64,000 bases of DNA from Terriglobia bacterium (GTDB taxonomy: Bacteria; Acidobacteriota; Terriglobia; Acidiferrales; UBA7541): positions 310,001-374,000 of the forward strand of contig JAIQFB010000001.1 of NCBI GenBank assembly GCA_020073485.1, in the 5' to 3' direction. Made by a program: the position numbers and the translations under genes. Shown piece after piece: positions 20,294 to 34,756 of this stretch (position 1 is the first letter of the stretch; each line of letters begins with the position of its first letter). Below the pieces are notes generated by a model. It was given only the letters and a program-made list of their open reading frames with translations, searched no databases and was not told where the DNA came from.

Positions 20294-20390
20294 GCCGCGC
20301 TGAAGGCGCGGAGTTGATTAGCCCAGGGCAACGCCCTGGGGAACCGATCACCCAACAACGTTCGCCCTGAAGGGGCGGAGGGGTTGTTCT
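20294..20390. repeat. REP-like palindrome cluster downstream of the transposase
   Basis: Contains short hairpins: GCGCTGAAGGCGC, CCCAGGGCAACGCCCTGGG and CGCCCTGAAGGGGCG, spaced 15-30 bases apart. Similar hairpins flank the other side of the neighbouring tyrosine transposase, the arrangement of REP/BIME elements. Confidence 0.7.
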
Positions 20391-33885: not shown

Positions 33886-34103
33886 GGTCGAGAGGCCGCC
33901 CCCACTGCCGGCCCAGCACACTGCGCGTAAAATGCGCCCATCGTAACCTTGTAACGTAGCAGGCGGGGGCGAGGGCGTCAAGAATGGGCGGGGGATTTTC
34001 TAGCCGGTCGAGGGGAAAAGTTCGCGCGATTGCGGTTGCTGATGTTGCTCTCGTAGCAGCTGGCGGTGGAGTCCCAGTACTAAGGGAAATATTTGAATGT
34101 ACA

Positions 34104-34132
34104 TTGAACGGGATTTAGGCGCTACGTAAAAT
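34104..34132 (+). promoter_or_regulatory. Strong promoter upstream of the structured RNA
   Basis: TTGAAC (34104-34109), exactly 17 bp, then TAAAAT (34127-34132). The predicted start is near 34139, about 65 bp before the RNA helix at 34205. No protein gene follows on this strand, which supports a non-coding transcript. Confidence 0.6.
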
Positions 34133-34204
34133 GTGCCCGGAAAATTTTCCCGCAGCATGGCTTTTTTACCCGGGGTGCCCCAATGAAAACACTGTGTTTT
34201 CAGC

Positions 34205-34342
34205 GTGTTGGGTTTGGCCTACCGCGTGCGATAGGTAATAACCGAAGAGGGAAGACGCGCCGAGGATCCCTATAGGGGATTGAGGGCTGGGCCGGCACGA
34301 TCTTCCCTCTCACCTGCTTCCGCTGCCTACCCCAAACCACAC
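34205..34342 (+). ncRNA. Rod-shaped structured RNA candidate, 6S-like architecture
   Basis: Three nested helices are visible. The outer stem is GTGT-TG-GGTTTGG with CCAAACC-ACAC (34205-34217 and 34332-34342). The middle stem AGAGGGAAGA with TCTTCCCTCT is a perfect 10 bp (34246-34255, 34301-34310), continued by CGCGCCG with CGGCACG with one mismatch. The tip is a small hairpin ATCCC-TATA-GGGGAT. Between outer and middle stems lie unpaired strands of about 28 and 21 bases. A closing stem, a large central bubble and a long terminal hairpin are the shape of 6S RNA, which binds RNA polymerase. Strand and identity are inferred; the pairing is seen. Confidence 0.5.
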
Positions 34343-34390
34343 CCAATGGACCATACCCATCAGCGGAAGCACGCGCGGTGGGGGCCTCGA

Positions 34391-34482
34391 ACCCAAAACC
34401 TGAAACCCAAAACCTGAAACCCAAAACCTGAAACCCAAAACCTGAAACCCAAAACCTGAAACCCAAAAACTTAAAACCTAAA
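34391..34482. repeat. Tandem 14-bp repeat
   Basis: About six head-to-tail copies of AACCCAAAACCTGA, the last decaying into AACTTAAAACCTA. No spacer variation or conserved palindrome is present, so it is not a CRISPR. The region between uvrA and the tRNA (about 800 bp) holds only this, the structured RNA and the repeat at 34490. Confidence 0.85.
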
Positions 34483-34489
34483 GACTTTT

Positions 34490-34609
34490 AACACAGAGAA
34501 CACAGAGGGCACAGAGAACTGCAAGAGAAGAGGATTTCGTGAAATGCGGATCCGGAGATCAGATCCCTCTGCCTTTGAGTTTCTCTGCGGGCCTCTGTGA
34601 CCTCTATGT
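34490..34609. repeat. Imperfect inverted repeat with CACAGAG units
   Basis: The left arm AACACAGAGAACACAGAGG (continuing GCACAGAGA) is matched by the right arm TCTCTGCGGGCCTCTGTGAC with CTCTATGTT, about 60 bases apart. It resembles widespread CACAGAG intergenic repeats. Confidence 0.6.
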
Positions 34610-34680
34610 TGAGACTATTGAAGTCTTGTCGGATTTGGGGTGTTGCCAGGGGATCGCGATTCAGGCGCAAACGAAGGAAA

Positions 34681-34756
34681 TGGCTGGGGCGAGAGGACTC
34701 GAACCTCTACCATCCGCATTAACAGTGCGGTGTCCTACCGATTGGACCACGCCCCA
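34681..34756 (-). tRNA. tRNA-Asn (GTT)
   Basis: A full 76-base cloverleaf on the minus strand: acceptor TGGGGCG/CGCCCCA, D arm GTCC-GGAC, anticodon stem CCGCA/TGCGG with loop CTGTTAA (anticodon GTT, Asn), T arm AGAGG-TTCGAGT-CCTCT, discriminator G and an encoded CCA. Every stem pairs perfectly. Confidence 0.97.

Follow-up and report, generated by a model that had tools for sequence, protein, structure and literature searches.

A candidate family of sigma-54-dependent small regulatory RNAs with a near-invariant core in the Acidiferrales

The window, i.e. the whole stretch of 64,000 nucleotides that was analysed, was searched with Rfam (release 15). Matches were found to 16S rRNA, one tRNA, Acido-Lenti-1 and nothing else, with Acido-Lenti-1 (RF01687) being located approximately 400 bp upstream of the 16S rRNA gene (20296-20340, minus strand, 39.9 bits). 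No family exceeded the gathering threshold at the locus described here. As an earlier note on this DNA had stated, no protein gene is evident at this locus, and comparison with relatives indicates that it is almost certainly a stand-alone, small non-coding RNA gene of approximately 130 nt on the plus strand (approximately 34241-34371). The predicted start is taken from the promoter; the 3′ end, at which no U-run terminator was seen, was placed at the base of hairpin P4 and is uncertain. With its extent thus redefined by comparison, the segment 34241-34371 folds far better than its shuffled counterparts (z = -3.87, 0 of 200 shuffles as good). Nothing unusual was seen when 34195-34352 was folded as one segment (z = -0.84, 46 of 200 shuffles as good). 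Just past the RNA gene are a perfect 14-bp tandem repeat (AACCCAAAACCTGA, 5.6 copies, 34390-34468) and, at approximately 34465-34610, a AACACAGAGAACACAGAG-like dispersed repeat with many matches elsewhere in its own genome and in relatives.

Comparison and covariation define a three-helix core within the predicted RNA (P1-P3, 34247-34309, plus strand). P1 is formed by 34247-34261 with 34294-34309, P2 by 34265-34271 with 34275-34281 and P3 by 34285-34287 with 34291-34293. The near-invariant strand GGGGAUUGAGGGCUGGGCC (34275-34293, plus strand) does not vary within the set of 26 sequences from which covariance model R1 was built; a broader covariance model is referred to as R2. Across 52 aligned sequences, standard pairs occupy 99.5% of cells and both sides have changed in 9 of the 16 pairs, values reached by none of 500 shuffles. 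Sliding the partner by one column in this alignment brings pairing down to 59-68%. Moreover, P2 is swapped for other complementary pairs in diverged copies (AUCCC/GGGAU, GCCUU/AAGGC and CGGUC/GACCG), and P1 shows a C-G to G-C change among relatives.

A further hairpin, P4, lies 3′ of the core (34315-34371, plus strand), with 34315-34325 pairing with 34361-34371 around a loop at 34326-34360. It recurs in relatives, where the consensus CUUYCGCCG...CGGCGRAAG is present at 28 loci using a strict pattern and at approximately 40 using a looser search; it is absent or diverged in approximately half of loci. The P4 loops are C-rich and G-poor (40% C, 15% G). All pairs of the arms are standard in 16 chosen examples, with several positions changed on both sides, although these examples were picked by looking for pairing and are weaker evidence.

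Upstream of the RNA is a predicted promoter of the sigma-54 type, with -24 and -12 elements (TGGCCTACCGCGTGC, 34215-34229, plus strand), which fits the consensus TGGCACG-N4-TTGCW (PMC2245857). TGG-N9-TGC is a short signal and its weight rests on recurrence at one position. It was found directly upstream of the RNA at 75 of 76 distinct loci against 1.3 expected from shuffles, and the reverse-strand and downstream controls gave 2 and 0 occurrences, respectively; the 76 loci are kin and these counts are not independent. With +1 set 12 nt beyond the C of the -12 element, the start of P1 falls between +2 and +7 at 69 of 75 loci. It is very probable that this small RNA candidate is driven by sigma-54, and rpoN was found in its own genome. 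Two sigma-54 domain families were looked for in one genome from genus g11 (G015) that contains the RNA and the -24/-12 site, and both went undetected, which reflects either an assembly gap or real loss.

An alignment of 75 promoters revealed two upstream sites of activator type, both on the plus strand. Site 2 (TTTTTAC, 34163-34169) holds a fixed position, 49-52 bp before the TGG of the -24 element in 73 of the 75 promoters. Sigma-54 activators can act from variable distance, hence this fixed spacing is notable. Site 1 (AAATTTTCCC, 34141-34150) is the second copy of the repeat, approximately 20 bp above site 2 and approximately 95 bp before the predicted start, and is TTTTTAC-like in many relatives. 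Both sites are predicted to bind an activator. Between them and the promoter the sequence contains an inverted repeat, GAAAACA-CTG-TGTTTTC (34185-34201), possibly a protein site, in a region that is A+T-rich in relatives and only partly conserved in the alignment. Family members were also searched for other genes with TTTTTAC and a sigma-54 site arranged in this way; none was recurrent, and the remaining matches were at approximately control level.

Nucleotide searches showed that the region is conserved in all five other sampled members of the genus, and the core across much of the family. Using model R2, the RNA was found in 80 of the 89 sampled genomes from one Acidiferrales (Gp2) family (45 of the 50 good-quality ones), mostly as one copy per genome. 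Carriers of the 19-base signature go by the names Acidobacteria "gp2", Candidatus Acidiferrales, Ca. Acidiferrum typicum and similar, and nearly all are metagenome-assembled. Model R2 also found an ortholog (53.7 bits) in G037, which belongs to a sister family within the order; it occupies the same locus beside rhodanese and polA genes and keeps the sigma-54 site. Upstream of that site, a perfect 20-bp palindrome (AAGAAGTTAGCTAACTTCTT; L081/L215) takes the place of the TTTTTAC repeats and therefore the activator of the sister-family copy may differ from that of the family. The remaining class and phylum samples gave weak isolated matches only. Those in G075, at which no promoter was found, G534 and G441 were set aside as weak, and 19-mer matches from beyond the family (L099, L103, L113, L156), having neither promoter nor model match, were attributed to chance. 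Searches of plasmids and phages gave no match to the RNA. A contig labelled Betaproteobacteria (L149) contains both RNA and promoter (78.7 bits); this assembly is probably mislabelled or mixed.

The good-quality genomes without the RNA are five genomes of one genus, g12. Loss of rpoN was rejected as the cause of this absence, as rpoN is present in all five. At the same locus, the uvrA-polA interval near tRNA-Asn, g12 (L199-L202) has another conserved hairpin element, consisting of GGAGGAGG, a G/C-rich hairpin and then TGTGAGGGGCCTGAGGGG, for which no match was found in Rfam. A TTGAC-17-TA-like promoter on the opposite strand may drive a C-rich RNA here.

Eleven diverged copies from three genera are without the sigma-54 site. 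The core is preserved in these paralogs, including the AGGGCUGGG part of the core strand in most, and P4 is not evident. Searching the diverged homologs against Rfam 15 gave nothing but a miRNA model below threshold. Most diverged paralogs have TACAG approximately 36 bp before GTATTG or GTATGG. Five follow a NarL-type gene at a distance of approximately 120-180 bp (the combination of Response_reg and GerE was shown for two of the proteins, the others being assigned by sequence likeness), and two further paralogs have a response regulator gene within approximately 1.2 kb. Four are near trehalose synthesis genes (treZ, treY, otsA/otsB-like). A tentative and rather unlikely reading is that the core serves as a portable RNA module that has a protein or pairing partner of its own, and that it would be under sigma-54 and an enhancer-binding activator in the main copy and under NarL-type regulators in the paralogs, including the four near trehalose genes. 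If true, the Acidiferrales would possess a lineage-specific layer of stress regulation.

The window sequence allows a rod resembling 6S RNA to be drawn, and the earlier note had suggested an Acidobacteria-type 6S RNA that binds RNA polymerase through a central bubble. The stems are present where they had been placed: a closing stem of 7 bp (GGTTTGG, 34211-34217, with CCAAACC, 34332-34338), a middle stem of 10 bp (AGAGGGAAGA, 34246-34255, with TCTTCCCTCT, 34301-34310) and an inner hairpin (GATCCCT/GGGGATT). The middle and inner stems have strong support from covariation, but the closing stem can form in 7 of 74 relatives, no more than chance allows (7.1 by shuffling). On its 5′ side it uses the -24 element of the sigma-54 promoter, which precedes the predicted start, and on its 3′ side a downstream loop. 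The supposed 28/21-nt bubble is an artefact, because the closing stem joins promoter DNA to RNA. Nor could the sigma-70-like sequence TTGAAC-17-TAAAAT (34104-34132) be upheld as the promoter, its hexamers being neither conserved nor aligned in relatives. The 6S model (RF00013), which had been proposed as a check, gave no match in the window at gathering score, nor in 33900-34690 at E up to 10, and a permissive Rfam scan of the latter interval gave chance-level matches only, none of them 6S. Against its own genome the model has exactly one match, on another contig (G000:C6:35644-35841, 68.5 bits, E = 3.8e-13). Given no model match at the locus, a 6S RNA on another contig and a closing stem and bubble that are not conserved, 6S identity was rejected and has a negligible probability. 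The note had also allowed for an unknown structured RNA, and this suggestion is borne out by compensatory changes among relatives in the stem core, the lack of which it had named as grounds for refutation.

An RNA on the minus strand, or an element acting at the DNA level (for instance a repeat or a site of recombination), is highly improbable. The minus strand of 34195-34352 folds well too (z = -2.47), but the alignment has 143 G-U against 2 A-C cells in favour of the plus strand, a count that leans to the plus strand as the structure was derived on it and alignment A4 was fitted to the plus-strand model. Inner P1 pairs alternating between G-C and G-U, and between C-G and U-G, are a direct sign of the plus strand, along which the promoter is also oriented. 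Moreover, a mobile element is disfavoured by the RNA being mostly single-copy within genomes. The chance of a cis-acting leader or riboswitch of the downstream gene, or of a short coding RNA, is scarcely greater. At some loci a same-strand gene is found downstream and some diverged paralogs stand directly before an ORF. However, whilst uvrA is divergent upstream in many genomes, the downstream genes and their strands vary among relatives, and a cis-leader was rejected on the basis of these differing neighbours. A short ORF was rejected as absent, with no ORFs of at least 15 codons (ATG/GTG) in 73 of 75 predicted transcripts.

Taken together, the comparison supports the predicted RNA structure, strand, promoter class, upstream sites, non-coding nature and independence from neighbours. 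The best reading of the whole is a candidate new family of sigma-54-dependent regulatory sRNAs, to which we assign a probability of roughly 0.8, with expression and regulation inferred from the sequence. The gene would be transcribed along the plus strand by RNA polymerase with sigma-54, and switched on by an enhancer-binding activator at the two TTTTTAC-type sites approximately 75 and 95 bp upstream. Its transcript would fold into the three-helix core, in which the G-rich joining strand is near-invariant, and a hairpin after the core would expose the C-rich, G-poor loop. Stability or a protein platform would be provided by the core, and the loop would pair in trans with G-rich ribosome-binding regions of target mRNAs. 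Such base pairing is considered the most likely mode because the loop is C-rich; with the role of the loop deduced in this way, its chances come close to even. Ranked below it, and somewhat doubtful, is an RNA that binds a protein or ligand, in which the near-invariant core would be active and not the P4 loop, titrating a partner at a dose set by sigma-54. CrcZ, for example, titrates a regulatory protein. In its favour, no other part comes near the core in conservation, the core is kept in the diverged copies without P4, and P4 itself is so often missing. Against it, where P4 does occur, a C-rich, G-poor loop is seen repeatedly in several genera.

Small RNAs of Acidobacteria have hardly been studied. 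No description of this RNA, nor of sRNAs in Acidiferrales, turned up in searches of the open-access literature, and for Acidobacteria with sigma-54 and small RNA there was one incidental match only. Here, sequence alone suffices to define an RNA gene throughout a soil-bacterial family, with its likely start, promoter class and putative activator sites. The near-invariant core raises the question of its binding partner, and the predicted promoter opens the regulatory input to testing.

Among known systems, Acido-1 (RF01686) and Acido-Lenti-1 are likewise structured acidobacterial RNAs, discovered through comparative genomics (PMC2864571), but neither model matches at the RNA locus. The likeness to 6S RNA ends with the rod-like fold, from which the RNA differs in the model match, the bubble and the location of the genome's 6S discussed above. 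A parallel is found in Qrr1-5 (LuxO), GlmY/GlmZ (GlrR), NrsZ (NtrC) and CrcZ (CbrB), which are sigma-54-dependent. These represent proteobacterial stand-alone sRNA genes under two-component regulators (PMC7602753, the reference list of which names the sigma-54 dependence of GlmY). They belong to another phylum and the RNA described here is without a match to any Rfam sequence or structure family, but the likeness lies in stand-alone sRNA genes controlled by an activator. As activator-controlled sRNAs, this kind of RNA is already known, and the family appears to be new.
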